From assembly GCF_949628265.1 (NCBI RefSeq), contig NC_088789.1:21631883-21695882 (forward strand): 64,000 nucleotides of DNA, in the 5' to 3' direction. Made by a program: the position numbers and the translations under genes. Under the pieces are notes generated by a model, which did not search any database, had not been told where the DNA came from, and worked only from the letters and a program-made list of their open reading frames with translations. Positions 1 through 40,900 of this stretch are shown here, in pieces; positions within the stretch are counted from its first letter, which is position 1; the number at the start of each line of letters is the position of its first letter. Origin of the DNA: Cloeon dipterum (taxonomy: Eukaryota; Arthropoda; Insecta; Ephemeroptera; Baetidae).

Positions 1-210
1 GCCAACTTGCACACTTGCTGGATTTCGTACCTTTCCAACGGATTTAGAGACAAACATTTGTCTGGCATATCAATCAAAGAGTGCGGGAAGGCGTATAGTA
101 AGATGGCCGCAATTGGCCCAACATTTCTGCGGCCAATCGGGCCCCATGTTATCCACTCGAAGGTGCCGTTGGCACCCGGTGAGGTCATAACCCACCCCGG
201 GATGTGCTGA
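1..210. other. Unassigned coding-like fragment at the window edge
   Basis: This GC-richer stretch is open in one plus frame from base 1 to a TGA at 208-210, with an AATAAA at about 336-341. That would fit the 3' end of a plus-strand gene truncated by the window. The minus strand is also open to the edge, and on that strand a pyrimidine-rich tract followed by CAG (about 240-215) looks like a splice acceptor, so a minus-strand internal exon is equally possible. I recognise no family in any of these readings. The strand is left undecided. Confidence 0.35.
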
Positions 211-1097
211 GCTGACAATGAGGTTCAAGAAAAAGCATTTTTCGACTAACTAAAAATTATTCACTATGGACACAACAACAATATACAGGGTCAAAGTTTT
301 TTAATCGTTCACGTCTTTGTAATGCTGTGTTCCTCAATAAAAATTTATTTAACTCATTCTTAAAAAATAAACTTTCATAGGCAGGGTTCCCAATATGTTG
401 TTTGCATTGCCAGAAATGAAAACAAAAATTCAATTTTAAACTGTAACATATCGAAATAATATATATTGACTTCAGAGCTACACTTTTACAGCAATTTGCT
501 TTTGCGGAGTAAGTGTGAAAATTTCTCGTAGGCTAGGAGCCCTTGAATTAAAGGCCTTAAAACTGGTGCAGAGAGCGGTAAATATTCTATTTAGCCTGCG
601 CCTCAACTATAATAGCTGTGGTTTTTCTGGTAATTCACACGATATTTTTCTCAAAGCCAGTCGTGCTTGAATTATTTCTGAGCAGAGGGGGACTGGAAAG
701 TTACTTATATTAAATATTATTTTTATACAATGGCTCCAGCAAGTGACCAATCAAGCCCTGCAGCAATTTTATCTCAACCATAAACACAAACTAAATTAGT
801 ATAGATATCATTTATTGCTGATTTTCTCAACCATTAATTTTGTCATTTCTCATTTAAGTGTGGCTAAAAGGTTTTTTATACGAGCCAAACATAAAACAGG
901 TTTCCGAGTGCAGGAAATGCAATTTTAATTCTAGATAGAGTTTCACTGGAAAAATAAAGTTCTCTCCCAACTTATAACGGATTATTCCAGGTTAAGGGAA
1001 AAATTGTTCCACTTTGAAATCATATTTTAAAAAACCATTAAAGGTATATTTTTATTGGTTATAAGACAGCTAATTTCATAAATTAATGCTCCACAAA
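211..1097. other. Intergenic or UTR, AT-rich
   Basis: AT-rich sequence with no credible exon. It probably holds 3' UTR and spacer between the edge fragment and Trub2. On the minus strand an AATAAA (plus-strand TTTATT at 1051-1056) lies about 45 bp beyond the Trub2 stop and is the likely Trub2 polyadenylation signal. Confidence 0.5.
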
Positions 1098-2360
1098 CTA
1101 ATTATTGGCTGCTTTATCTTGGTAAATATTCCTCCCAGTCACGTCAAGCCTTTCCTCGTCTAGATTGGGCACAATGTCACTGTTTTCCTTCACCAGTTTA
1201 CTACACAGCTTCATATTTTTCAGGATATGCTGCAGGTCCCAATCAGCGCTGCTGAGGGCATGCTCGACGCCAAAGTTCCCGATTTGCACACACTTTATTG
1301 AAGTAGTAGTTGCGGCGCTGCGGAGTTTTATCCCTAGCAATTCAACCATGGATAAAAAGTAGTCTTCAGTCTCATTCAGGGTGTGCAATTCTAAGCAGGG
1401 TAAAAAATCAGGCATGAAATAGGAAAAAACACTTGAAAAACAAACCTATAGTAAAATCCGGAAGTCTGAAGTCCAAGAGACGGGCGCTGTAAATTACACA
1501 GCCCCCTGTGGTTTTTGGTTTGATGGCTCCCTGCAACGCCAATTCATAGGCTTCCTGGCTGTCTGGCAGAACTCCAGCCAAACTATGATTAAAATATATA
1601 TAGGAGTAACAAAAATATTGTCTTATTTTAAGAAATTATACTCAAAAGCACATTTTGTATGCGCGGCTTGCATTGATGCTAAAACTGTTGTAACTGCATG
1701 TGGAGGCACATGCTTGAAACTGGCCTTGGCTTTTCCTCTTCCTTCATCAAACCATCCAGAATCGGTTTCCAGGCCAAGCCGCACACCCACTTGATAACAT
1801 CGAACTAACTGGTGGAAGGTCTTGTTTTTCACTTCGTTGCACCCTCCGTTAATGCCCAGTACTGCGTGGAAGATTCAAAATTATTTCAGGAGGATTTAAT
1901 TATATTTTTAAACTGACGCAAGAGTCCAGAAGACCTGTAACCGAGTTCATGAACCATCCGGCCCCTTATTTCTTCAGTAACATAGCGAGGTCCAGTGACA
2001 AGAACGTTGTCCGCGTAGCTTGGGATGACTTTGATTACGCTTTTAGACTTAGTCTTTTCCGCAGGTACATCCTTTAGCTCACTTTCAATCATAATATATG
2101 GAGTAGGAGGCCGGACCTTCATTTGATTTAGATCTGTAATGTGAATATTATTTTATGGTGCTGGTCTTAATCCATTCATTTCTTATTCACATACCTCTGC
2201 ATAAGTGACTTTTTATTGTGTGTTTGACTACTGCAACTGACTTTCTTGGTGGCTTGTACAGACACACGATACCCGTCAGATGTTTCCAAACCAAGCTTGC
2301 ATCTCGGGTAAGTTTCATTTTAAAATATTCAGCTTCGTACCTCAAGAAATCAGCAAAATC
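1098..2360 (-). CDS. Trub2: TruB-family pseudouridine synthase, Trub2-like (mitochondrial)
   Basis: Five exons on the minus strand: 2360-2195, 2133-1918, 1861-1642, 1582-1446 and 1390-1098. From the ATG at 2318 they give 329 residues, close to the human TRUB2 length of about 331. Recognisable landmarks are the N-terminal GIVCLYKPP (compare LFAVYKPP), VTGPRYV, the SSGLLLLG strand created by joining exons 2 and 3, YQVGVRLGLETD, and QEAYELALQGAIKP (compare QEAYEMAVRGLIRP). The C-terminal part has ALSSADWDL. TRUB2 acts on mitochondrial mRNA. The frame stays open upstream of 2318 to an acceptor at 2361, so a further 5' exon and an earlier start are possible. The residue aligned with the catalytic Asp (HRLDAQ in human) reads HELGYR here. 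The exon 2 donor is a weaker GTCAGT. The gene is divergent from Sik3. Confidence 0.85.
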
Positions 2361-9955
<7,595 letters not shown>

Positions 9956-10526
9956 ACCGTGGCCGCAGAGGATTTTTCGTGTAAATTTGGCTGTTTTTCG
10001 AGAGCATTCCAACCAAGCGCTGCGCTTTTTGTATGATACCAACCATTCTCTAGTTTTGCTGGGAAAAATTCAGTGCTGCTGCCGCCGATGTGATTTGATG
10101 TTTTACTTTCAATGTTTGTGCAATTTGTGAATGGTGATACACTAGTGATCCTTATTCATTCCAGATGGCTGGACAATCCAGCCTGTATTGTGTTGCCTAG
10201 ATTCATTAATTCAGAGTTTGCGTTGTTCGTGCATTGTTTCCGTTATCAGTGCATTTATCAAGGGGCATTTTGCAATTTGTAGGTGCCAATCTTTGAATCT
10301 TTTGACGAGATTCGCATAACAACAAAAGAATTGATTGAGCATCTAATTCCACATTTTTTTCATGTTAAGATTATCTTTGAGGCCTCATTTGCCGGTAAAT
10401 GAGTTTTTTAAGAGCTCTAGTCAACTACTAAGTAGGCTTGCAAATACTTCTAAATTCTTGACTTCTTCCAAAATCATTTTGGAGTTTTAACAACCCTTTT
10501 TTATATCACTTATCAATTAACCTCTG

Positions 10527-10558
<32 letters not shown>

Positions 10559-12060
10559 TCCTCTATCAATTCTCAACGATAGTGATTGGTTTTGTTTTTG
10601 TTAATATTTTCCTCTTGTTTGTTCAACTCTAATCAAAAAATATTTTTATACTTTATTGTTTATGCTTCAGTGCAGGGGACGTTTTACAAGGCAGTTGAGT
10701 GTCAGAGAGATGTGAATGAAATGTACGCTAGCTACATTTTGTAAACTTTTATGCACAATTCCAAATATATTTTTAACTTAAACACTGCATTTCCGTGTGT
10801 TATTTTTTGCTCCTAACCTTTGAAGTTTCGTCGAAAAAACTTCAGTATAAATAAATTTGAAATCTAGTAAAGAAATTCAATATTTTATATATTTTTCTTA
10901 TAACAAAAATACTTTATTTAATGATTATTGCAAGGGCGTTAGTGTTTAGTTAATTCATCAGTTTCTGGACGACGCAATATAGTAATGAGTACGAATCGTG
11001 GAATTTCACCTTGATCATTCTCTTGGTGGTGAAAAGTATGAAAAAACTTAACTATGGTTCACAGAAATTACTTTAGCTGTTAAAAATGCTTTTTAATCAA
11101 ACTCGAAAGTAAAGGAAAATTGTGTCGTGTTTCATTTGATAAAATTTTTCACTTTACGTGGTTAGACAAAATAACTAATTTGTTTTTATATTTTTGGATA
11201 AACAATAAATCTTCAGGTCGGTTAACAACATTTATTTTTTGCCTGGTCAAAACTAGTTCCATAAATACAGATCAGAGTTTAAGAGTCATTCTGGGATATT
11301 ATTAAAAATCATGAAAGCGTAAAAACCCTTGAGATGTTTTTCTCACTTCGAAACATTTAAAGAGGATTGATTAATGGCAAAAACCTGGAAAATCCTTGTC
11401 AATAAAATATGAATTGATCGCTTAGGATTCAGTTAAAGCCAAAATTTACCTAATTGTAAGAGTAGCACTGTATATTTTTGAGAAAAGTCGGCATGCTTTT
11501 AAATGGTGAGGACAGTCGCTTTACTTGAAATTTTATTTTTATTTCACTACGAAGAGTTTCCCTAAAAAGTGTCACACACACATTTGGATAGATCTCGACG
11601 AGAGGAATCGAAATTTTCAAAGAAAAAAAGGTGGTCAAGCGTTGTAAATTTTGGAGAAAATTTGAAAATTTTGAGTTTTTACTGTAGCAAGGTTCTTGAC
11701 TGATTGTTGCCAAATTTTTATCGACCAACTGCTTTTATTGCATCCAATAATTCAAATAATGTTAAATTGTCACCCTGTATAAATCCAACCAAAACAATTT
11801 CCTAAAACGTCCTGGTGACGGCAAAATTTCGCATAGCTCTAAAATCAAACTTAACTTTTCTTGATGCAAGAAATAATGGTCAACTATCATTTCAACAAAA
11901 AAAAACAAGAATAAAAAATAAAAGACGAAATGAAGGTTAAAAAACACCAACATGTGTCATATCAAAAAAAGGAATTTTCTCATGAAAAATATTCGTGTAA
12001 ACTGTTTCACTTTTTGTAATCTCTTGGAGAAAGTCAGGTGTTTTGCCACCGTAAAAATCC
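9956..12060. other. Sik3 3' UTR and spacer
   Basis: No exon could be supported. The first 900 bp is probably Sik3 3' UTR, ending near the AATAAA at 10850-10855. The remainder is AT-rich spacer. Short open frames on both strands have no family resemblance. Confidence 0.5.
10528..10557. repeat. (CA)n microsatellite
   Basis: About 14-15 uninterrupted CA units inside the presumed Sik3 3' UTR, about 570 bp after the stop codon. Confidence 0.95.
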
Positions 12061-12332
12061 GAATTCGCACAGTCGCAAATTCAGTGAGCGCGCCAGAGGA
12101 ATTTAAATAAAAAATGGCGCAGTCGCAGTGCGCCTGGTGCCTCTAATCAGTCGACATTCGCAATCAGCGGTCGGGAAGTAAACAAGTGGGAGCTGTCTCG
12201 GTGTGTCGTGTCCGCCAGGCCAACCTGCCCAGCTCGGACGCGCCTCGGGACGCACCCACCTTTACGGACCGTCCGTACCAACCGATTTAGTCGTGAAATA
12301 TTGTGATAGTAGGGATAGTAGACGTAATTAAG

Positions 12333-15300
12333 ATGAACGCGGGCGCGGACAATGGCTCCGTGCGCTGGTCGGACAGGGAGGTGGTCGAGCTGCTCAACAT
12401 TTGGGGCGACCGCAACGTGCAGCACCACCTGAAGAGGACGTTCCGCAACCACAACATCTTCGAGGACATCTCGGAGGCCCTGCGGGAGAAGGGAATCCGT
12501 AAGACGGCCGAGCAGTGCCGGTTGAAAATCAAGAAGTTCAAGAGCAAGTACAGGTCGCTTAAAGACCAGTACGAGAACTGTCCGAAGAGTTTTGCCCGCA
12601 ATTCCTGGCAGTACTACTCCCTCATGGACTCCATCATGGGCGACCAGACCACCGGCCCGGACGATGGTGCAATTCTCAGAGGTGAGAAATCTTTGGAGTG
12701 AATTTATATATTTCGTCCTGGTCCCGGTAAAATTGCGCAACTTTCAACAAACACCCAAGTTTGCATTGTCGAATTGATTGTTGACCTTTTCTTGCAACAA
12801 GGAAATTCGCGTTTGGTTGTTGAAAGTTGCGCAATTTTACCGGGACCAGGACTATTATTTGTTATTTTTTCTTCGTGTTTTTCCTTCGAGAAATAATTTT
12901 GCTGATTGTGGTATGTCATCTCATGATAATGATATTTTTTTTTATATCTCCATTCAGTTACACTTAGATGTAAGAAGACCAACAGTTAAAATGATGTTTA
13001 CAATGAAAATTAAAATTAATATAAATCTTAATTATTTGAAAATAAATAACTCCTAAAAAGAGGTGGGAAAATAAAAAATTTGTTTTGCTTTCAACCACCT
13101 GTTAACTGTTTGAATGTTTCCCTATTTTATTTTTAAATGTTTTGCCATTTCTGTTGTCATTATTTAATTTTGGAACTATCATTTTTGTGTTGCAGCTAGT
13201 CTTTTGAAACGGAGCCACCTCCAGTCACAGGATTCAGATAACGCTGAACACTTTCTTTCCGGTCTCCTTTCAAGTGAGTTGTTAAACCTTTAGAAATTAT
13301 TCCAAGGAAGCAGGTGCGGGACACGTTGATTTTGTGGGAGTGTAATCAGAGACGTTCACAATTTTCTCCCCTATTGTGCAACAAGAGTGATTCATTACTA
13401 AACTTATTTATTTCTACCATAAAATGAACAAAAATTTTTCGAAACGATAGATTAAAATATTTCCTGTCAATGAGATCGTAGCTAAAATTTTCGAAATTAA
13501 GAAGAGGTTTCTAAATTGTTTTTATATTATAGTTTTGTTTATTAAATGCCACAAATTTACCAATTTCTAATTTTTAAAATTAAATTCAAGCCCAAAAACT
13601 CGTAATTTTTAATAAAAACTGGTGCAGGCGAGGGGTAAACGTGAAACACATTATGGAGGTTCGCAAGCCACAAACGCGTTTCGAATTACATTTCGATTTC
13701 GACTAGCAGCAGCAGGAAAGAAAGAAAGAATGGAGTGACCGGCGGCTGCTGCTGCTGCTGCCGACCGCGTGTTGGCTCGAGCTGGCGTGGCGGTGGTGGG
13801 GAGAGCGAGTCGAGAGCCGGTATTCGGCTTGAAGGCGGGCCGAGAGTCGCCATGTCGGCACTCGGCAGTTTTCGCCGTTCGACTTCGGGTCGATACACGC
13901 TTGCCGAGACCGAGAGCGCAGCGAGTGTCGAAGAAAATGTCGGCCGTCAAAGACGATGCGTTCGACCTGTTCGATGGGCAGGACACGGAGATGGGCGAGT
14001 ACGATGCGTCCGACCCGCTGACCCACGGCCTCTTCGTGCAGAGTGCCCGCGGTGTGATCCGGCTGGTCGACTCGCTCGGCTACATCTACCACAAGGACAG
14101 GCACTGTCCGGACAACAACAAGACCTACTGGCGATGCCAGCGGCGCAACCTCAACTGCAAGTGCCGTGCCGTCACGCTCGGCAACTTCATCGTCGGCATC
14201 AACGGCCAGCACTTTCACGGATGTGAGTTTTCGGACGCATGAGTCTCGGATTTGAGTATTTTGGCCAAATTAAATGTATAATATAATTCAGCCAGCCCCG
14301 TTTGTTGTCGCGTGTGCGTCCAACGAGCGCTGCCCGCTGCACGGCGCATGTGCCGAACCGACCGTTGATATTATTATTTTTTTTATCTCGCGACCCACCG
14401 ACCGAGCAGAGCAGGCCGTCCGGCAGGCGCCCCACTTTTGCGGCCCACACCAGCCCCGCGCGGCACATTCGATTGGGAATTCGTCCATTTTCCCAGCTAC
14501 TCGCGTTCGGTTCAGACCCGTCCGCGTTCGATAAATTAATACATAATTCGGCTTGACTTACAGACCTACTTGCACGAGGCACAATTGCTTTTACTTGACG
14601 GTAGGTCAGGAAGAAATTCCTCCGAGACAATTGCTAGCTCAATTCGCTCACCAATTCATTGGAGTGAATATGTACTTGAAATTACATGCCTCGAAAAAAT
14701 ATTGAATTCTGACGGATCTTAATAAAATTAAGTAATTTTGTATTCCCGCGCCTTCTGTATTTTGACAGGTGGTAGGCAAAACATGGCCTCCAAGCAATTC
14801 AGCGATAACCTTACTTTTCTTTCAAGTTTCTCAGAGCCTTGAAATAAAGAAAAAAGTTGGCAGCTTGAACAGAGGATAATTATCATAAATTTAAACTATA
14901 TTTTTTATGAAAAACCTTCTGAAATAATCCGACATAAATCAGACAGAAGCGATATTTATTTAGAAACTCTAACTGGCGCTGAAGACAGCTTTTATGTCAA
15001 AACAATCTTATTCACTTTACAAAATCGAGTCGGGGACAACTTGTTTTATCACGAAACGGAATACAGCAGGAAATTCTCTCTGATAAAACGACAAAATATC
15101 AGTTTCCTCGGCCACAACTTGCTTTCCTGCCTCCTGCCTACAGAAAACTGATGAATTTAACCTCAAATAAATTCTGAAAAAATAAATACAATTTAAATTA
15201 CTAGGGAAAGGCATTCACATGCTACACTAACTAATTTGAAGTATTTTAGCCAGAGTCAAGATATTGGAGGTTCAATACCCGTTAGTGTGGGCATAATAGC

Positions 15301-18300
15301 AAAATTCATAGTTTTTACGGTTCACTCCAGTGCTTGCCGGATTTAAGTTATTCTAAATTTTATAATTTATCATACAAGTTTGTGTTGCTTTCCCTATTAT
15401 TAGTGCTAGTAAATTAAATTTATTTATTATTTGTCTAATAAAAATTTATTTCTCATAATTACAGGGAATTGATAGTTTTGATAATAATTATCGATTTGTA
15501 TTCAAGTTTCCTAACGTCAGCTTTTATTTTTAATTAATATGCTCCAATCTGTCAAGAGAACCCTTGGGTTCGCAAATTGTTTCTCGAGCATATTATTATT
15601 TATTGTGATATTTGCATGGACCACCAGTGAAATTTTTAAATCTTGCATTGATTCCTAGCTATAGACTAGACAGTTGTCCAGTGTGTCTATTGTCAATTGT
15701 CAGATCCTAATCTCTGCTATTCTTAATTCTTACACAAAACCAAAAGTATAAAAAATATAAAGGTCTCTTAGTTAGCCCCCTTAACGATACACTTTTGCCA
15801 ACACTTCAAAATTTGAAAATGCTTGTTTGCAATTAACTGTCGGTAATCTACAATAATTAAACTCCAAAAAAAAATTTATGCTTAATAATCTGATCCTAAC
15901 AATTACTAAAAGGCAAAAAAGGTCACCATTAGAGACCCTAATTGTTAGCCAAATTTCCATTGACCGAATTTTGCAACCTCAAAGTTATGAATCTTAAAAA
16001 AATGTATTTTTTAATTTATTTTATCGCCTTTTGCTCTTCACTTTTTATCACATCTTAGTGAATGAATCGGGATAAAAAAGAAAGATATATAAAAATGAGC
16101 TCTTTATATTGGACTAGGATTGCCAACTCTCAATTATCTTGATTTGCCTGTATTTTTGTCCTACCATCGTCCTCTAGATTAAGTTGCTTTTTAAAATTCA
16201 ATGGATGGTATTTTTTTTTTTGGTTAATTAGCTGCTAAAATAATGACATTTGTTACAACTTTGATCTCCAAATCAGAATCAAAACTAAATTTGTATGCAC
16301 TTTTTAAATTTCAAATCCTGACGGCAAAAGCAAATTGGGAAATTTCCTCCTCCAACATGGAAATTTCTCCATTTTTTTTAAAATCGTTCAATTTTCAAGT
16401 TGAGATCGATGAAACTGCAGGGAATGATCGATTATATCTGTTAATTGGTAACCCTAAATCTGCTAATTGTATCGGCAACGCGAACTTGCTACCGACACTG
16501 TTTGCCAAACAACGGCCGCTGCTTTGGCGAACGACCTTGCCGCTTTTGCGGCTTTGGCGAAGAGAGCCCTCTCGCACTCGCAAACAGAAAGAACGCCGAG
16601 TCAAGAAGAAGGCGCGGCTGGGCAAATCTTGTTTTTATTATTTGTTTGGAAAATCGCGATCTTGCATGGAGTTCTCGCCGACCAAGCACGGCGGTGTGAA
16701 ACTGGCCTTTAAGGGTTTCGAGTACTCGGTGCACAGCGTCGGCGCCACGTTCATCCGCTGGCGTTGCGTAAGACGCGGCTGCGTCGCCAAGGTGTGCAGG
16801 GCGCACCTACGCACCGACATCGACAGACAGAGGGTGCTCTTGGAGCCCGGAGGAGCAAAAAACGCCCACAACCACCAGCCTTCCGCCGCGCTTTGCCCGT
16901 GGCCCCCGACCCGTGAGTTAACCTTGCGACTTGAATCGGTTGATTGACCCGTTTGAGGGCCGCTCAGCCTGTTGCATTCGTGCGTCATTTGTGTTCTAAC
17001 GCGCGCCGCGCTAATCCTGTCGAATTCCAAGGTATGCGGAAACAAAAATGACCTTTCAAGCTTCTCGAGAGACCAACGTCCTAAATCGCATGAATCAAAA
17101 GTCCTTGTTCTTCGCTCGGTCGTTGCACTGTTGTGAACAAGGAAGTCCACGGCAAGGGCCAAATTCGCACGAGAGACTTGATGCGATCCGAAACAGAAAC
17201 TTAGATATTGTTTCTACGCGGCCAAAATTTGTTACGTAATGGCTGGTAAACTTGCACTTAAAAAACAGCTGATTATTGTTTTTCTTTCCCTTCGCAAACT
17301 CCAAAAGACCATTTTTTTTAAAGTTTTTCGTCTTCAAATTAATTGAAATTATGCAATATTCCGATTAAATTTTATTTTTTCCAGCGCTATATGTTTTCCG
17401 ATTATTCTTTTCAAACCGAAGGATTATTTGAATATCGTTTTATTATTAAAAAGTGTTCCCAATTCCGTGACACTTTCAGGAATGGTAGGAATTTAATATC
17501 TAAATGCGTTTGGGGAAATTCATCTCGACATTCAAACAAAATTTTCAAGTGCCAATCGTGGCAATTCCTGTCAGTTTTTTCTGGCAAATTCATAATTATC
17601 CGAAGATTTATTCAAAAAAATTAATTTCAATTTTATTTATCTTGCGTGCCGGCGATTTTTCAACCTTTCAAGTTCCTTGAATTTAATTTATCATTTACAA
17701 ACTTATTTTCATTTATTAATATTTTTTATTTTGTGTTTCGGCTGTGTTTCAGTCTTATTTATTTGTTCTAGAACTTTTTGCTGCGGTGCCTCGTGTTTTT
17801 TTTCTCTCTCTCCGAAACCGCGACCGCTACGAACCACGCAGCTGCCATGCCGCCGCAAGTTGTTTGGCGTCCGGCCGACCGGAACACGCCAACACGCCCG
17901 TCCGGTTTAACCGACACAAACCGAGTGGATTCGTTCGTTTTCGGATCCGCTTCAGCTGGCGTGACCGACCGATCGCGACCGGACTGACGCGCTGGCGTTT
18001 GAGCGGGCCGGTTCGGATTAGTCTTTTTGTCGCCGCGATGGACAACGAGACGAAGTTGTACATGAAGCGGATGCTGCTGAGCGGCGACGCCGTGGTCACG
18101 CAGTTCAAGGGCGGGGGTGGCGGCAGCATGGTCAGCGACGTGTGGAAGAAATTCGGCCGGATTGCCATACGAGCCACGGGCAACCTGGTGGTAGGTGTGG
18201 TGGCCTGCAGCCTCTGCTTCAAGGTCTACTCGTACAAAGACAGCTCGCAGGGCACCAGCACCCTCCGCCTGCACGTATGCGGCAACGACGACGCACCCGT

Positions 18301-21300
18301 CCGAAAAGTCCGCAAGTCAGGAGGTACGGATAAGCCATCGTATATGAACCAAGCCACGCCGTTTGTACGGTCAAGGCTGTGTTTCGTAAAAAATTCGCGG
18401 AATAGAGCGGTGCGGCCATAATTCAGACTGATAAGGTTTTCGGAACGATAACAGAAAAAAATAATCACCAAAGTTAAAAAAAATAATTTGGCCTGCGTAG
18501 TTTTGAAATAGCCTGCGATTTAACCGGTTTCGGTAGCTAATTTATTTTTCTCTTTATTACGTTTACGTGTAGAATGCGCATATTGCGAATGCACGTCGCC
18601 CGATTTCCCTCTAAACCTGATGAAACCAGCTCTCTCAGTCAATTTGGCTAAAAAAGCTTTTAAGGTCGCAAACGTGCTCGACTCGACTAGGCGTCCCTGC
18701 CGGTCGAATGCGATTGTCAGGCGTAGGGGAAGGGGGAATCGCTTCCCGCAGGAGACGCAGCACGAGATGCTGACGAGAGTGCAATGCCACCAACGTGACA
18801 GGCCCCTATCCTTAGCCGCTTCCCTCCAAACACTGCGGACGTGCGATCAATAAACCCCGAAGCGTTTTTTTGGCGGCGCGTGGGCCCCCACTCGTGCGCC
18901 CTGGTCATCATTCGGTCGGTGAACACGCATAATTGCAACGACCTTTCCATTAGGTTGGAGGGCCTGCTGGCGAACGTGCAAAACATCAGCTGCCCATTGC
19001 GGATCGTTCCATTTTACTGCTGGTTGGAGTCGGCAGTCGCGTAGTGCGCGTCAGACAGGCTGCCAGTGAGACTGTTTATATTAGCATGTCTCAGCACTAC
19101 GTGCTGACCAAAAAGTCGACCAGGATGGGTCGCGTGCGTCGCAACTACAGCCGCAAGGACATGGAGGACGCGGTCAGGGCTGTACAGGAGAGGAGGATGA
19201 ACCTCAACTCGGCCGCCAATTATTTCTGCATCCCCAAATCCACCCTCCATTACGTCGTGACGGGCAAGTCGAAGATGGACTTCAACCGACCGCCGTTTAT
19301 CATGTCCAAGGGCCAGGAGAATGAATTAGTTCGCGTGTTGGCAAGCATGACCTACGAGGGGGTTGTTTTCAACTTCAATAACATCGAGGAAGTAGTCGAG
19401 CGCCGCCTCTCGGGAAACAAAAACCCCTTCGCGCACGGCCGGCCGGGCCGCTCGTGGTGGAACGACTTTCGACTCCGGCACCCAGAAATCGAGTTCGTTT
19501 TTCACGCGTTCGGTACGGTGTATTTATTTGTTTAAACTATTCGTGAAAATTTAGTGGACTATTTTTTTACCCCTGCCGCTTGGCGTGTTGCAGCTCCCAA
19601 AGATACTCCAGGCTCGGCCGAGGCGTCATGGCCGGCGGTAAACAGCCCCCAGGTGGTGCAGCGGCTCAAGTCTGGCGATCTCCTCAACGCGCCGCAGTCG
19701 ATGACCCAGCGCGAAATCAAACCAATCCTGCCGAAGCCGTCGACGTCGGCGGCGGCCGCCATGAGCCCGCCGTACCAGGACTCGTCGCAGCCGGCTCCGC
19801 AGGCGCGACCTCTACAGCCGAAGCAAACGCCAAAGGCCGCACCGAAACCAAAGTCGAGCGCCGCCGCGTCCCAGCCGCGCTCGGACAACGACGACTCGGA
19901 GCCGCAGCAGGTGTGCCTCCGCTGGAACTCATTCCACTCCAACATGGAGACCATGTTCCCTACGCTTTTGTACAAGGAGAAGTTTGTGGATGTCACCCTT
20001 GCCTGCGAAGGACGGCTCATAAAATGTCACAAGGTACCTTTTTTCTTTTTTTTCTTTTTTTCGGACTGGGTTGGTAAAAAGTTCAGATTTTGAGCATTGG
20101 AATGTTTTTCAATTTTATCGTAATTAAATTATTTTTAAACAATGCTACCTTTTTTGCCTATGACCTCGGTTTAAGTTATGGGTCGACACAATTTTATCAA
20201 AATCGCGAGGGCAGGAAGAAAATGAGCACATATCGTTCATTTTGTTTCTTATTATTCTTCTTATTATATTCCAAGAATTTTTAAAGGAATATTGTGCAAG
20301 TAGAGAAGGCAAATCGTAAAATGTAGAATATCTCAAGGCTTGAAACATTGAGGTAAGGTCGGCGATCGAACTTGTTTTTTTTAGTTTGCTCTATTTTTTA
20401 TCTAATGAAAGGCACTTTCTCTGAAGAAATTTTACTTGTAATTTTAATTTTTAAATATTAACAACTGGGAATTAAGTGGCCCTACTACACGTAAGAAATT
20501 TTCTAGTTTTGGAATGTTTCAATTGTAATATATATATGCTTTGACATTTTTGCAATTAAGTAATTTTTTTAAACATTGCTTCCTTTTTGCCTATGACCTC
20601 GGTTTAAGTTATGGGTCGACACAATTTTATCAAAATCGCGAGGGCAGGAAGAAAATGAGCACATATCGTTCATTTTGTTTCTTATTATTATTCTTCTTAT
20701 TATATTCCAAGAATTTTTAAAGGAATATTGTGCAAGTAGAGAAGGCAAATCGTAAAAATGTAGCATATCTCAAGGCTTGAAACATTGAGGTAAGGTCGCC
20801 GACCGAACTTGTTTTTTTTAGTTTGCTCTATTTTTTTCTAATGAAAGGCACTTTCTCTGAAGAAGTTTTACTTGTAATTTTAATTTTTAAATGTTAACAA
20901 CTGGGAATTAAGTGGCCCTACTACATGTAAGAAATTTTCTAGTTTTGGAATGTTTCAATTGTAACTTATACAATTATGCTTTGGCATTTTTGCAATTAAG
21001 TTCTTTTTTTAAACAATGTATCTTTTTGCCCATGACTTCAGTTTAAGTTATGGGTACACAAATTTTTATCAAAATCGCGAGGGTAGGAGTTGCATTTTGG
21101 AACTAATACTCTCCAACGCATAAATTTGTTTCACCTTAATCCGAAAATATTTGTTTTTTTTTACAAGAGAAAAAATTGAAAAATGTCCTCTTTGTGCGCA
21201 AGAAAGTAAACCTTTCAAATTTATTATGAAAAAGAGTGCAAAGAAAATGAGCACATATCGTTCATTTTGTTTCTTATCATTCTTCTTATTGTATTCCAAG

Positions 21301-22849
21301 AATTTATTAAGGAATATTGTGCAAGTAGAGAAAGCAAATTGTAAAAAAGTAGTATATCTCAAGGCAGGAAACATTGAGGTAAGGTCGGCGACCGAACCTC
21401 TTTTTTTAAATTTTCTCTATTTTATTTTTACAAATGAGGGCATGGCCACTTTCTCTTAAGAAAATTTTCTTGCATTTTAATTTTTAAATGCTAACAACTG
21501 GGAATTAAGTGGTCCTACTATACGTAAGAATATTCGAGACTGATATCCAATTGTGCCCAAAGCGTTATTGTTAATTTATTGTCCTCTGGGAAATTCATCA
21601 TTATGACCTTTTTTCTACTTGAATTCCCTCTTCCTTATTTGGTTAGTCTCTTTGAAAAAAAAAAACATTTTTTACTGACGTCTTAGGTGCTGAAAAAATA
21701 AGCAAAGTGCTATTCCTATTGTTTTAAAATTTAAAATATATAAAATATTAAATTCTCGACTTAATTTTAAATTTTGTGTGCAGGTTGTGCTTTCGTCATG
21801 TAGTCCTTACTTAGAACGCCTGCTCAGCGACAATCCATGCAAACACCCCATCGTGTTGATGCCAAAAGATGTTCCTTACTGGGCCCTGCGAGCCATCGTC
21901 GATTTCATGTACCGCGGCGAGGTCAACGTGGAGCACGAGCAGTTGGCGCCGTTGCTGGCCGCCGCCGAGTCATTGCAAATCAAAGGTTTGGCCGGATCTC
22001 CAGGAGACGCGGGGAGCAGAAAAGACGGAAGGCCAGGCGTGAAGAGAAAGCGGATAGAGTCACCAGCGCAGACGAACCAACAGCCTAAACCGCCCCAGCC
22101 GACCCCTCAAAACAACACGTCCTCCCAACAGTCTACCTCAAGTCCAGCGACCGCGACTGCCCAGTCATCATCAAAAAAAGAGGCGAAAGAATCTCCATCT
22201 CAGAAACATACCCAAATGGCACCGCACATCGCCGAGAGTCTGCGAGGCCTGTCCCCAGGCATTGAAATCACGCCACTTGTGTCATTTGAGGTAAATTTCA
22301 ACCGATTTGAAAATGTTAAACATTAATAACTTTTTTCTTCTGGTGCAGGAGATTAAAACGGAACCCATAGACAGTAATGACGATGGATCTCTCGAACCCC
22401 CTGACGATTATGGAATAGGAAAAGTAGGTTTATTTATTTTGTTATGTTGCTGTTTGCAACTTGTTTTCTCTTGAAGGTTTCACCGTTCAAAGGCTATGAC
22501 GACGGAGACGAATCTTTACCAGTCAGTCACGTTGAGAGCTTAATGGAAGAAGAAGACATGGGCGACGAAAGCGATACACTCAATGACCATTCCCAAATAC
22601 CCGATCCAAACGACTTGCTATCAACTGAAATGGAACCAATTGAAGGTAACAAATTTAAAATACATCAAGCATACGGGTTTCTCAACATAATACGTTTTTT
22701 TTGCAGAAGAAGACGATTCAGCAAATGTGTACAGTGAAAATGGCATGGACTTCCCCGATTGTGGCCTTTCTGAAGAAGCTTCAGACCTGGTCGAGTCGTA
22801 TGCTGAAGTGTGCATGCCAAGTGATCCTGGAGAACATCACGGGAGCTAA
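12333..22849 (+). CDS. Modular BTB transcription factor locus, Myb/SANT-like isoform
   Basis: The most 5' isoform joins 12333-12681, the optional small exon 13196-13273, and the shared exons 19594-20033, 21784-22290, 22349-22423, 22477-22645 and 22707-22849. It has 586 residues, or 560 without the small exon. The first cassette has a Myb/SANT-like (trihelix-type) fold: VRWSDREVVELLNIW, then a helix with KRTFRNHNIFEDI, then GIRKTAEQCRLKIKKFKSKY. The small exon adds a Ser/His-rich linker. The shared part encodes the BTB domain and acidic tail. The ATG at 12333 follows about 250 bp of GC-rich 5' UTR. Domain order and phases are seen in the sequence. Use as a transcription regulator is inferred from the families. 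I do not recognise a named orthologue. Confidence 0.8.
12715..12852. repeat. Perfect 36-bp inverted repeat in the first intron of the BTB locus
   Basis: The arms 12715-12750 and 12817-12852 are exact reverse complements separated by 66 bp. The left arm begins 34 bp after the Myb/SANT donor (exon end 12681). It could be a small transposon remnant (MITE-like) or a structural element in the pre-mRNA. Confidence 0.95.
13196..13273 (+). CDS. Small phase-1/phase-1 linker exon of the BTB locus
   Basis: A 78-nt exon with a clear TTGTGTTGCAG acceptor and a GTGAGT donor. It begins and ends in phase 1, so it can be kept or skipped without shifting the frame. It encodes a Ser/His-rich segment (SLLKRSHLQSQDSDN...). 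It can follow the Myb/SANT cassette and join the BTB exon directly. Confidence 0.65.
13741..13762. repeat. Short (CTG)n tract
   Basis: Five to six CTG/CGG-type triplets in the 5' UTR of the first FLYWCH cassette. Confidence 0.6.
13937..14222 (+). CDS. Alternative 5' cassette 2: FLYWCH zinc finger
   Basis: An ATG-initiated exon of 286 nt ending at a GTGAG donor in phase 1. After an acidic leader (DDAFDLFDGQDTEMGEYD) it encodes a FLYWCH-type zinc finger: GVIRLVDSLGYIYHKD, then TYWRCQRRNLNCKCRA, then a terminal GQHFHG supplying the His pair. FLYWCH fingers bind DNA or protein in regulators such as mod(mdg4). About 300 bp of GC-rich sequence before the ATG, with no convincing acceptor, suggests its own promoter and 5' UTR. 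Joined to the exon at 19594 it gives an open 539-residue protein. Confidence 0.75.
14223..16665. other. Long intron between FLYWCH cassettes, no exon seen
   Basis: The first 350 bp after the donor is GC-rich with short meaningless open frames. The rest is AT-rich and shows no zinc-ligand pattern or plausible exon with phase-1 donor. It may hold a promoter for the cassette at 16666. Confidence 0.5.
16666..16912 (+). CDS. Alternative 5' cassette 3: second FLYWCH zinc finger
   Basis: An ATG-initiated exon of 247 nt ending at CCC|GTGAGT in phase 1. It encodes a FLYWCH-like finger with GGVKLAFKGFEYSVHS, FIRWRCVRRGCVAKVCRA and a NAHNHQP His pair. It is not a recent copy of the cassette at 13937, since residue identity outside the zinc ligands is low. 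Joined to the BTB exons it gives 526 residues. The 150 bp before the ATG is GC-rich and may be 5' UTR. The upstream frame is open, but its composition looks non-coding. Confidence 0.7.
16913..18037. other. Intron and presumed 5' region of the BED cassette
   Basis: AT-rich intron sequence turning GC-rich from about 17770. I see no zinc-ligand motif. The GC-rich 250 bp just before 18038 is the likely 5' UTR or promoter of the BED cassette. Confidence 0.45.
18038..18323 (+). CDS. Alternative 5' cassette 4: BED-type zinc finger
   Basis: An ATG-initiated exon of 286 nt ending at CAGGAG|GTACGG in phase 1. It matches the BED finger plan: SDVWKKFGRIA, then ACSLCFKVYSYKD, then GTSTLRLHVC, so the zinc ligands are C-x2-C ... 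H-x-C. BED fingers come from hAT transposases and are common in chromatin regulators. A Gly-rich run (FKGGGGGSM) precedes the finger. About 200 bp of GC-rich sequence before the ATG looks like 5' UTR. Joined to the BTB exons it gives 539 residues. Confidence 0.75.
18324..19085. other. Intron and presumed 5' region of the psq cassette
   Basis: The GC content rises again from about 18600. Short open frames on both strands at 18620-19050 have no recognisable motif and are best read as 5' UTR or promoter of the psq cassette. Confidence 0.45.
19086..19512 (+). CDS. Alternative 5' cassette 5: psq HTH plus CENP-B/Tc5-like HTH
   Basis: An ATG-initiated exon of 427 nt ending at TTCG|GTACGG in phase 1, only 81 bp before the BTB exon. 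It encodes a pipsqueak-type helix-turn-helix (MEDAVRAVQERRMNLN..., IPKSTLHYVVTGKS). A second helical segment follows and ends in NPFAHGRPGRSWWNDF, which resembles the second DNA-binding half of pogo/Tigger-type transposases (compare GKPGKDWF). Both HTHs are retained, but there is no DDE catalytic domain. A GTG extension upstream is ignored because the ATG at 19086 is the first conventional start. Joined to the BTB exons it gives 586 residues. Confidence 0.78.
19594..22849 (+). CDS. Shared BTB/POZ (tramtrack-type) exons and acidic tail
   Basis: Shared exons: 19594-20033, 21784-22290, 22349-22423, 22477-22645 and 22707-22849 (stop 22847-22849). The first starts in phase 1 after TGTTGCAG. It encodes a Pro/Ala/Lys-rich linker, then QQVCLRWNSFHSNMETMF and FVDVTLACEGRLIKCHK. 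The second continues with VVLSSCSPYLERLL, FMYRGEVNV and AAESLQIKGL. These are the hallmarks of the tramtrack-type BTB dimerisation domain also found in lola and mod(mdg4). A basic KRKRIE stretch, a Ser/Gln/Pro-rich part, EIKTEPID (a SUMO-like IKTE) and an acidic tail follow. No zinc finger lies after the BTB in any frame up to the AATAAA at 22945-22950. DNA binding would therefore have to come from the upstream cassettes. Confidence 0.9.
20097..21540. repeat. Three tandem copies of a 0.41-0.59 kb unit inside the BTB intron
   Basis: Units begin near 20097, 20511 and 20946. Each contains a stretch reading GCCTATGACCTCGGTTTAAG or a close variant, then a GAGGGCAGGAAG-like segment, then TCAAGGC...GAAACATTGAGGTAAGG. 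Copy 3 carries about 150 extra bases around 21085-21245. Copies 1 and 2 are the most alike, which suggests recent unequal duplication. No coding potential is evident. Confidence 0.9.
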
Positions 22850-23882
22850 TTCATGGATGTTCTTGAATTGAGCAATTCAAATTTGATGGCATAGGAATTT
22901 ATTTTAGTTCCATCGTGTACATTTCCATTATCAGAATATTTTGCAATAAATGACGTTGCTATTAACTTTCTAAGAAATGGGGTGTTTCTGTTCGTGTCTT
23001 ATCACTAGATTTTTACAACTTGACCAATTAGTCTGAGAATTTAAGAGGCTGAATAGATAATAAACCTTGGAGATATACCGCTTTAAGAAAAAAAGTCTGA
23101 CAAGAAATCGCGCAACAGTGACCAGTCAAACAGGTACGTGAGGTTTTTAGTAATGGACCTGCTTTCCGAAATTTATGCACCCTTTTGAGTGAGTTAATAA
23201 CCTCTTGGATCCAGTTGGTAGGACACGTGCTCAACAGCTAACAAAATTAAAAAAAGTTTCATTTTAAGTTAATCACATTTTTGAATGATAATTTTGTGCA
23301 ACAGCTATTTACACATAAATATATTCATTATTCAAAAAGCTCAAAGACAAGTAATATTGAGATTTAGAACACCACTGTTCAATAAGCATGAGATGCATTT
23401 TATTAACTTGAGTGCGGGGAATTAATAAAAAAAAAAAACGAATTGTGCTAATCGTTTATTGAGCAGATGGAAATACAGGCGCCCATATTATTGTTTTAAA
23501 GGAACTAATAAATAAATCAAACCTGTCCTGTGACTTAAAAATTATAAAAATCAATATTAAACTTGTTCTATTAGTACTATTAGCATAGCTGCTATTTCCC
23601 TATTTCCCACACGGCACACGACTTTCGCCTTTGGAGTTTGGCATCGCGCGCGGAAAGTAGCATGAGCAGAGCATGAGGGCGCTGCAGACTTCATGCCAGT
23701 ACGACGTAAACAAAAACAAGCACGCCGCTCCCCCTTTTTATTATTGTGTGGCTTGAGGACTGTTTTGTGCCCCTCGTGCTTCTGGTTTCCCTCTGGATCG
23801 AACTGATTCTGTTCTGGTTGATTACCAAACATTTCTCAAACCACTTTGAACACCTAAAACTGTCAATAGGAATGTGTTTAAA
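22850..23882. other. BTB-locus 3' UTR and zinc-finger gene promoter
   Basis: The BTB locus ends near the AATAAA at 22945-22950. The segment 23590-23880 is GC-richer and probably forms the promoter and 5' UTR of the zinc-finger gene. A minus-strand open frame at 23234-23028 has a pyrimidine-rich acceptor before it, but no partner exon or family match was found. Confidence 0.45.
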
Positions 23883-28201
<4,319 letters not shown>

Positions 28202-37900: not shown

Positions 37901-40900
37901 TTCCGAACGTCTGCCGTCATGCCCCGTGTGTCCATCCTTCGCTACGTGATCGAGCTGGCTAATGCGCTCTGATGCCGTAAAGCAGGCGTTGACAGCCGCC
38001 GTCCATCCGTCCGATTTGGCCAAAAGCGGCCGGAGCTGTCCACGCGCGCCGCGAACCTGTTTTGCAGAAAAAACGGCGGAATCCGCCAGCCAGTACTCAC
38101 GAGACTCGAGTGGGCCCCAGATAAATGCTGTAATTATTGCTTTTTAAACGCCTCCCCGCGCAAATATCAGGCCCGAATCAGGCCCACGCTGCTTTATTAA
38201 TCTTGGATTGTGTGTGTGTTTCAGAAAGGTGTACTCGGTGTGGTATGGCCGAGTGGGAACGACCAACTCAATCACGTCCGACCAGGTTCAGCAAGTCTTC
38301 AACGATATGGATCTCTACCCTTCCAAGTCGCAGGGTAACTGTCTTGTATCTTGTGCTTGATTCGGGTTTCCAAAACCTATTTAAACCATTCAAAAGTTTT
38401 GTTTCAATTCATCCATTTTTTATTTATCAGAATAAAATTTAGAAACAAACTTGTGCTACTGGTCAAAATTTTAATTTTAGTTCTTGAAAATGACTGCTCA
38501 AAACATTCGGGTTTAAGCTCGAATTAATTCAGGGCGTTGTTTAAATTCTCTGATGGAATCGGATCCTTAGTTTTCAGGCTTTAAAAGCACTGTCCACCTA
38601 CTGAAAATCAATTTTTATTTCGCCAAAGGAGAATTTCCCTCACAAACTACTCATATTTGAACATATCTCACCGATAAAAGTCAAAATAAATTCCAAAAAG
38701 TGGTAGTTTTCCAGAAAAAGCATATTTATTGACCGTTCTATTTTCATTGAGTTTTGATATTTGAAGTTAATGAAGTTGGCTATGCAGAATAAGTGTCTTG
38801 TTTAACTGTGTAATTGATGTACCGATCTCGTTCTTCTTCCTCCGTTCTCGGCAAAGCTTGATTTATAACACGGTTTATTTTTTCTCTCGCGCTCTCTGTT
38901 AATACGCGAGCAGAGCAATTAATATCAACACACACGGTCGGACCCACGCGCAATTGATATAGATATATCACTCGCAACGGTTAGCGGCTGGGTGGGCGAC
39001 TCGAAAAATAACGAGATGCAATAAGGGACTGGCGTTTTGTTATTTACACGAGACAGGTATTCAGGTGCGAGGCGTGGAGCGTGTGTGTGAGTGAGCGTGC
39101 ACCAACATGAAAATCGGGGATTTCAGCGGAGGAGTCAGACTCTTTTGCTCGTGTCACCAGCCCCCAAGATGGCAATTTTCTAGTTGGGAGCCAATCGGAG
39201 AAGGCTCGAGATTTGTCATTCGTCTATTTTGCACACATGGTGTGTGCGAGTGAGGGCGACCGCATCGACGCAGCCGCCGTGGCCGTGAGCGCGTGCTCTT
39301 TCGCGTGCGTTTGACCCGTTTGGATTCCCGATTAAAAAAGGAATCTGGACTTTTGTGTTGCAGTTTACGAGATGCTGCAGTGCGCGAAGGAGTGCGCCAA
39401 CCGCAGCACGGCAGCTTACCTCACGTTCGGCGAGTTCTGCGTATTCGCCACCGAACTCAAGCGCTGCTATGAAAAAGGGTGAGTTTGCGTCCCGTCTGTA
39501 TTTGCGGAGAGCAATAGACTGACTTTTGCCCTCAGCAGCATATCACGCCCGATGCAAATGTCGAGAAAAAACGGGGAGACCGAGGAGAAAAACAACAAAA
39601 GGAGAAATAACAAAAATTTGAGTGAGTTGAATGACATTTTTTTCTGAGCTATAATAAATTTTAACTTCTTTTTCACTGCTTACTCAAAAGGTGATGATTG
39701 TTATGATGGTGAGATATTAAAATTCTTTATCGTCGTTGCTTAAAATCCCATGTTTAAATTCCTTATTCGACAAGTTTCACCGTTATGGTAGCTCCTTATT
39801 TGACGATAAAATGCAAAATTAAACAGAGGTTCAGTTTTTATATTAAAATTTTTCTATTGAAAGGATAAATAAATTCGCACATGTCTTTATTTGGCATGGG
39901 TCTTCAGATTTTCATGAAATTTGATAGAGGGGCTATTCTAATAGACTCAAGGCCCACCTGATAATCTCAGGTCCCAGAATTGGATATTTTACAAGACTAT
40001 TTTAGAAGACTCAAAGTTGTCCCTTTTTCAAAATTGCAATTTCAGCAAACAAAAGTAACTTCTGTTCTGATCGTGGGAAATAATAAATGTCTAAAATATT
40101 ATGCGTATCATACCCAACAACTTTGCTTACTTTTTGGGGCAAAGGTCAAGTTCATACAAATCAGGTCGAAAACGTGTATGGAACCGATGCCCTTTCCGCG
40201 GGATCGGTTGACCCTGTTTTAAATACTTCAAAATTTACTGTGACGCTGAAACTTGAAAAAAGTAACTAAAACAAGGCTTAAAGCAACGATTGAATTTATT
40301 TTTGAAGAACCTTTTTATTAAATTACTACCGAAATTTTATTATTTAAATACAAACCAGTTTTGTTCTTTAAATTTCATTTTCCATGTTCGAAATTATGCA
40401 TATATGAATCATTTTTATCTATTTCGCGTAAATTTTACATAGCATTTTGGCGTTTTGCAGAGAGCGTGCCTAAATACGAGGTATTCCTCGGCGGCTCATG
40501 CAACCCGACAACCTGGCGACAGGACACAGCAATACCCATGCTGAAAAAACTGGGAATCACTTTCTACAACCCACAAGTGTCACACTGGGGCCCCGAACTG
40601 GTCGAGTTGGAGTGGAAAGCCAAGCAGCACGCCACCGTCCTCTTCTTTGTGATGGACAACGAGACGCGCTCAGTGGCGTCCCTGATCGAAGCAGCTCACA
40701 GCGCCGCGAAGCAGCGGAAGCTGATCCTGGTCATCAGCTCGTACAAAGGGCCGGGACAGGAAATCTGCGGCGAGTTCCTGTCGCAAAAGTGAGTTTGCTT
40801 GCTGCTGGACTAAGTCTGCAAACTGATTTTTCCGTCTCGATCTCGCAGGGAGTACGACGACCTGGCAGCAGGGCAAACGGTTTTACAAGACTTGGTCGAG

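Follow-up and report, generated by a model that had tools for sequence, protein, structure and literature searches.

The closest described systems are the Drosophila genes lola and mod(mdg4), in which common 5' BTB exons are joined to variable 3' DNA-binding exons through trans-splicing (PMC11426971, PMC4667647). The age of mod(mdg4) is given differently by its surveys. In passages of one (PMC5094011), mod(mdg4) transcripts were detected only in Neoptera, and mayfly and dragonfly draft genomes were also searched, with no mod(mdg4) ortholog named from them there; the other describes a cis-spliced mod(mdg4)-like gene in Daphnia and so differs on how old the gene is (PMC4667647). In the latter survey, genes from four added species were accepted as mod(mdg4)-like only if BTB lay upstream of FLYWCH, a rule that would pass over the order seen here.

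Here we describe a mayfly locus, within a window of 64,000 nt (the whole stretch of DNA analysed), which resembles the Drosophila genes in that one set of BTB exons appears common to isoforms differing in their DNA-binding domain, and resembles mod(mdg4) in the FLYWCH fingers of its second and third cassettes. In contrast to lola and mod(mdg4), its DNA-binding exons are of several kinds and lie 5', and the BTB lies 3', so that the polarity as read from the sequence is opposite. We think it probable that this is a single gene for transcription factors, whose five first coding exons are used in mutually exclusive fashion and spliced to a common linker, BTB and acidic tail. Such a reversed plan (variable DNA-binding N-termini, common C-terminal BTB) had been put forward in an earlier note; it stands as the best reading of the sequence, short of proof, on the strength of exon phase, the donors taken jointly, the extent of coding sequence, the coding character of the BTB exon ahead of its first methionine, and the order of domains at other BTB–psq loci.

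Exons and domains of the locus

Five consecutive ATG-led exons, each with one DNA-binding unit, precede one common BTB part on the plus strand (Table 1). Their boundaries in the earlier note are exact to the base, and recomputed lengths and phases confirm a phase-1 donor for every cassette: each exon length leaves a remainder of 1 when divided by three, and a GT comes directly after every exon. The claim that the BTB exon also begins in phase 1 and leaves each cassette join open holds as well, since all six joins (the five cassettes, plus SANT with its extra exon, whose length keeps the phase) reach one terminal stop and give products of 526–586 aa. The PSQ-to-BTB intron would measure 81 nt, the remaining introns of the gene being 53, 58, 61 and 1750 nt, and a poly(A) signal, AATAAA, occurs at 22945, 3' of the last shared exon. 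The last 150 aa of the product hold 43 D/E versus 4 K/R, an acidic tail that may serve in activation. The intron that splits the BTB also contains three direct copies of a unit of about 435 nt (20094–21426), the last spacing being longer for part of the unit.

Table 1. Positions (in the window) and features of the cassette exons and the shared exons
Feature	Position	Strand	Description
Cassette 1 (SANT), first exon	12333-12681, 349 nt	+	Myb/SANT-like (Myb_DNA-bind_4); donor GAG/GTGAGA, phase 1
Optional exon of cassette 1 (or alternative second exon)	13196-13273, 78 nt	+	Acceptor top 2.2%, donor top 0.8%; frame stays open
Cassette 2 (FLY1), first exon	13937-14222, 286 nt	+	FLYWCH finger; donor GAT/GTGAGT, phase 1
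Cassette 3 (FLY2), first exon	16666-16912, 247 nt	+	FLYWCH finger; donor CCC/GTGAGT, phase 1
Cassette 4 (BED), first exon	18038-18323, 286 nt	+	BED-like finger; donor GAG/GTACGG, phase 1
Cassette 5 (PSQ), first exon	19086-19512, 427 nt	+	psq HTH and Tc5/CENP-B-like second HTH; donor TCG/GTACGG, phase 1
First shared exon	19594-20033	+	About 105-aa Pro/Ala/Ser/Gln-rich linker and first part of BTB (VCLRWN...CHK); phase-1 acceptor
Second shared exon	21784-22290	+	Remainder of BTB and beginning of low-complexity tail
Shared exon	22349-22423	+	Open frame and splice sites
Shared exon, acidic tail	22477-22645	+	Open frame
Last shared exon	22707-22849	+	Stop TAA 22847-22849

Profile searches with Pfam bear out the Myb/SANT-like domain of cassette 1 (Myb_DNA-bind_4, 1.1e-20; MADF falls under its cut-off, at 21.6 versus 22 bits) and the two FLYWCH fingers of cassettes 2 and 3 (6.4e-11 and 4e-8), all three named in the earlier note. 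The BED finger claimed for cassette 4 is BED-like by profile (zf-BED, 7e-4), with 20.0 bits falling slightly below the cut-off of 20.6; by eye, a cysteine pair and a histidine are there, and the final ligand is oddly positioned. Of the two units claimed for cassette 5, the psq part is recovered (HTH_psq, 1.1e-6). The second, CENP-B-like HTH is a weak point: it has no Pfam match of its own and is suggested through a relative at C4:1491561 in the same genome, to which the whole psq cassette aligns (28% over 121 aa), and which carries HTH_psq and, in its second half, a match to HTH_Tnp_Tc5 below cut-off. We rejected the idea that the cassettes are tandem duplicates, the only similarity among them being that of FLY1 to FLY2 (E 0.03, about 30% over 54 aa).

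The shared domain itself is a clear BTB (PF00651, 1.7e-23), with 57% identity over 110 aa to another locus in this genome, one that we call tramtrack-like from its sequence. Among solved structures, 8rc6, the BTB of CG6765, is fourth of the 17 sequences matched (1e-9), behind two fused zinc-finger BTBs and one kelch-like BTB. The domain starts with VCLRWN, which departs in its first residue (V, not F) from FxLRWN, the motif given for the start of TTK-type BTBs in PMC11426971. This near-motif and the match to 8rc6 make it likely, though not proved, that the shared BTB is of the TTK type. According to the same paper, TTK-type BTBs form hexamers and can hetero-multimerise (PMC11426971). Thus the earlier statement that all isoforms can dimerise should be widened: for a TTK-type domain, mixed assemblies of more than two would be expected.

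The same note had held that no DNA-binding domain follows the BTB, and indeed none was found by Pfam in the open joins between the BTB and the stop or poly(A) signal. The next gene downstream, a C2H2 zinc-finger gene (window 23883–28199), seems to have its own ATG exon at about 23883, beyond the poly(A) signal, and so does not supply the BTB gene with an alternative 3' end. The upstream neighbour (window 1–10130) encodes a protein kinase, one piece of an exon matching Pkinase at 6e-16, and reads like a salt-inducible kinase. Farther downstream, at 40322–40792, lies a nucleoside 2-deoxyribosyltransferase-like domain (PF15891, 4.5e-22) of a family better known from bacteria and phages. These observations come from three neighbour proteins scanned with Pfam.

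Splice sites, coding extent and competing gene models

In each cassette we took as donor the GT with the highest score from the domain's end up to the stop, ignoring phase, with weights and segment bounds of our own setting. In all five segments this choice returned the claimed donor, and all five lie in phase 1, matching the BTB acceptor, a coincidence expected once in 243 if phases were random. Donor strength, combined over the five, gives a Fisher P of 0.0027 against random segments of the window, and taking phase into account as well lowers it to 4e-5. Singly, the donors of SANT (0.013) and FLY1 (0.018) are unusual in strength, and those of BED (0.14), FLY2 (0.19) and PSQ (0.25) are unremarkable. 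The SANT donor is within the top 0.4% of GTs in the window, and those of PSQ (top 8%) and FLY2 (top 5%) score only moderately. When the GTs of each open frame were ranked from 60 nt past the ATG onwards, the claimed donor came out on top in every cassette but FLY2; there it came second to a GT at 16791, use of which would split the finger.

The ordinary strength of three donors counts against the five-cassette reading, as do poly(A)-like signals in four of the five stretches from a cassette to the next exon. These points would suit a gene in which only the psq cassette joins the BTB, the other four being separate small DNA-binding genes nearby, either intronless or with unseen 3' exons: the psq–BTB intron is the most ordinary, the stretch between PSQ and BTB is the one free of poly(A)-like signals, such signals follow each of the other four cassettes, and two of these, BED and FLY2, have ordinary donors. 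Small intronless genes are also formally possible because each cassette meets a stop 17–95 nt past its donor.

The extent of coding sequence argues otherwise. Third positions are G or C in 444/530 cases inside the cassettes. The share falls to 29/62 from donor to stop, where half of the letters come from BED (Fisher exact versus the inside, 6e-10), and to 177/374 in the open in-frame sequence leading up to the ATG (3e-31). The drop past the donor is also seen when only the final 60 nt of each cassette serve as the reference (0.0004). The coding signature thus fits the interval from ATG to donor, which argues both against intronless genes running to the stop and against coding sequence upstream of the ATG. 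In addition, a transposon-like element (12715–12852) begins about 33 nt past the SANT donor, in what would be the SANT-to-BTB intron, and marks the DNA there as non-coding; it has 39-nt inverted ends, 97% complementary, and recurs elsewhere in no fewer than 39 close copies (of 841 candidates, 40 were scored, the 40 main matches being 95–100% identical). With the strong SANT and FLY1 donors, and with all cassettes sharing the phase of the BTB acceptor, these features leave a psq-only junction unlikely in our judgement. The SANT exon and the sequence just 5' of it lie between two more diverged 65-nt inverted arms (11809–11873 and 12788–12852; 74% complementary, with a spacing of 914 nt), possibly an older copy of the transposon-like element.

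Just 5' of the psq cassette is an 81-aa plus-strand open reading frame (18799–19041) with a coding-like codon score and no Pfam match; it could belong to the 5' UTR of the cassette or be an exon that escaped recognition. Its presence would favour separate genes in this interval, but among 205 open frames of at least 30 codons in 12000–22900 it is the sole plus-strand frame outside the gene to reach the lowest cassette score. Two minus-strand frames likewise reached that score, one of them antisense to FLY2. The training exons for this score came from the window itself, BTB exons included, and the frames were picked by openness alone.

The receiving exon gives a further line of evidence. Ahead of its first in-frame ATG, the stretch 19596–19700 has a codon score of +3.0 in the BTB frame (shuffle mean -15.8, P 0.0022), compared with -19.3 and -9.9 in the other forward frames, and one reverse frame reaches +1.4. 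This exon is therefore coding-like upstream of its first in-frame methionine and seems to need an upstream coding exon, the nearest candidate being 81 nt away. The in-frame methionines ahead of the BTB (19701 and 19761) lie 70 and 50 residues upstream of it, and in all six of the nearest BTB paralogs a methionine was found within about 21 residues of the domain (by eye, among the open frames listed).

The acceptor at 19594 is weak (top 22% of AGs, fifth among the AGs of the open stretch), with a T run upstream of it that lies beyond the reach of the score used. Another AG, at 19612, is likewise in phase 1 and scores slightly higher. The best acceptor of the open stretch, at 19698, is in phase 0 and sits just before an in-frame ATG; this and the weak score of 19594 count against the joined gene. 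One could accordingly imagine the BTB as an independent gene with a non-coding first exon, entered at 19698 or translated from Met 19701 or 19761, to which no cassette is joined. Such a gene would leave the cassette donors with no partner and the coding character of 19596–19700 (confined, on the forward strand, to the BTB frame) without a use, and with the acceptor at 19594 an out-of-frame ATG (19628) would come first; we regard it as very unlikely.

Base composition hints at separate promoters for the cassettes. The GC fraction in the 150 nt before the five cassette ATGs is 0.52–0.63, compared with 0.23–0.48 ahead of ten internal exons, which were drawn from this gene and its downstream neighbour and in part have roughly set starts. 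Observed/expected CpG is mostly about 1 or above in the cassette stretches, but the first shared exon and parts of the intron after it show the same, and as evidence for promoters the composition is suggestive only. An exactly spaced Inr and DPE pair occurs once in 11800–19600, at 18635, and the window as a whole has five on its two strands; we set the match aside because 18.6% of shuffles of 11800–19600 contain at least one. The same GC-rich stretches, resembling promoters or 5' UTRs, bear on whether cassettes might also be joined to each other, so that at least two DNA-binding domains would precede the BTB in one protein. In-phase AGs that rank in the top 2–10% as acceptors do occur 5' of FLY2 and BED, but since the pre-ATG stretches lack the coding signature we consider such splicing extremely improbable.

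In the five-cassette gene that we favour, each cassette would be a separate first exon picked by its own promoter, and its phase-1 donor would be spliced over 81–6912 nt, along one strand, to the shared phase-1 acceptor at about 19594. The products would have the same flexible linker, TTK-like BTB and acidic tail, and would differ in their DNA reader, of which there are four kinds, FLYWCH occurring twice. With a common assembly domain and different readers, mixed oligomers could bridge different sites, and the locus might then work as the combinatorial factory imagined in the earlier note.

The locus in the mayfly genome

We searched the genome (190 Mb, ten contigs) with profiles that score the best candidates only, so that the match counts are lower bounds. 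At least two FLYWCH matches were found, and both of those listed are at this locus. The lack of a further FLYWCH match among the best candidates scored agrees with the detection of mod(mdg4) transcripts only in Neoptera in PMC5094011. Myb_DNA-bind_4 has at least four matches, the best of those listed being cassette 1, and zf-BED at least 149 at E up to 1, cassette 4 being absent among the matches listed. When the cassettes themselves were compared with the rest of the genome, SANT had no match at E<=0.001 and BED none at E<=10, and PSQ had two weak relatives; the FLYWCH cassettes were compared by family profile only.

The order of domains at this locus is unusual for the genome. Eight of the at least 14 psq matches lie within 10 kb of a BTB match, at five loci and on the same strand throughout. 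At all four of the other loci psq comes after the BTB (seven matches), and among the matches listed it comes before the BTB only here, in a comparison of all 61 BTB and all 14 psq matches listed, both numbers being lower bounds. At the six nearest BTB loci outside the window, read by eye among the open frames listed with parts of loci P4 and P5 left out, a DNA-binding unit is downstream in five and none is within range in one. We also considered whether other BTB paralogs carry like cassettes, and rejected this on six loci of about 19 kb, where the best outside match had an E of 0.036 over 25 aa. A BED match (C3:8122339) about 9 kb downstream of a BTB match (C3:8112699), on the same strand, may represent a BTB–BED gene in the usual order.

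Pattern matches in viral contigs (to the psq cassette and BTB) and in contigs of prokaryote genomes (to BTB) yielded none confirmed by tblastn, in line with an animal gene.

Comparison with related systems

The readers gathered at this locus have a common flavour. PMC10027918 counts FLYWCH (Mutator), psq (pogo), Myb/SANT-MADF (PIF) and ZBED among the families derived from DNA transposons, and every cassette is thus of a transposon-related class, or close to one. A tentative suggestion, possible but in our view doubtful, is that the locus is a landing place at which DNA-binding domains of several DNA-transposon superfamilies (PIF-like Myb/SANT, Mutator-like FLYWCH twice, hAT-like BED and pogo-like psq) became interchangeable first exons before one oligomerising BTB, with mixed assemblies reading several transposon-type sites. 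The difference from transposase-derived transcription factors is that several such domains here share one host BTB, and Pfam finds no transposase catalytic domain in the cassettes. With real junctions, the locus would also make it possible to test how a single host gene recruits DNA-binding domains of the transposase type.

Among other BTB proteins, the nearest likeness is to the BTB–psq factors of the pipsqueak type, which also combine a TTK-like BTB and a psq HTH within one protein, but psq precedes the BTB here and follows it at the four other loci of this genome. Among the matches listed in open-licence PubMed Central, no title or opening of an abstract describes a BTB joined to alternative first exons for DNA binding. 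Should the junctions prove real, DNA-reader swapping of arthropod BTB genes exists in both polarities, and at this locus it would proceed by the choice of first exon, and hence of promoter, instead of by 3' or trans-splicing. Surveys that demand a BTB before the DNA-binding domain could miss such loci.

The plan itself has parallels outside transcription factors. The clustered protocadherin and UGT1A genes carry tandem variable first exons with their own promoters ahead of one constant 3' part, and their products are cell-surface proteins or enzymes. This locus shares with them, at the level of its sequence, a row of ATG-led exons whose donors all have the phase of a single constant part. Unlike them, the variable part here is a DNA-binding domain, and the exons come from several families. 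Were the junctions real, DNA-binding specificity would become a direct read-out of which promoter fires, delivered through one shared assembly domain.
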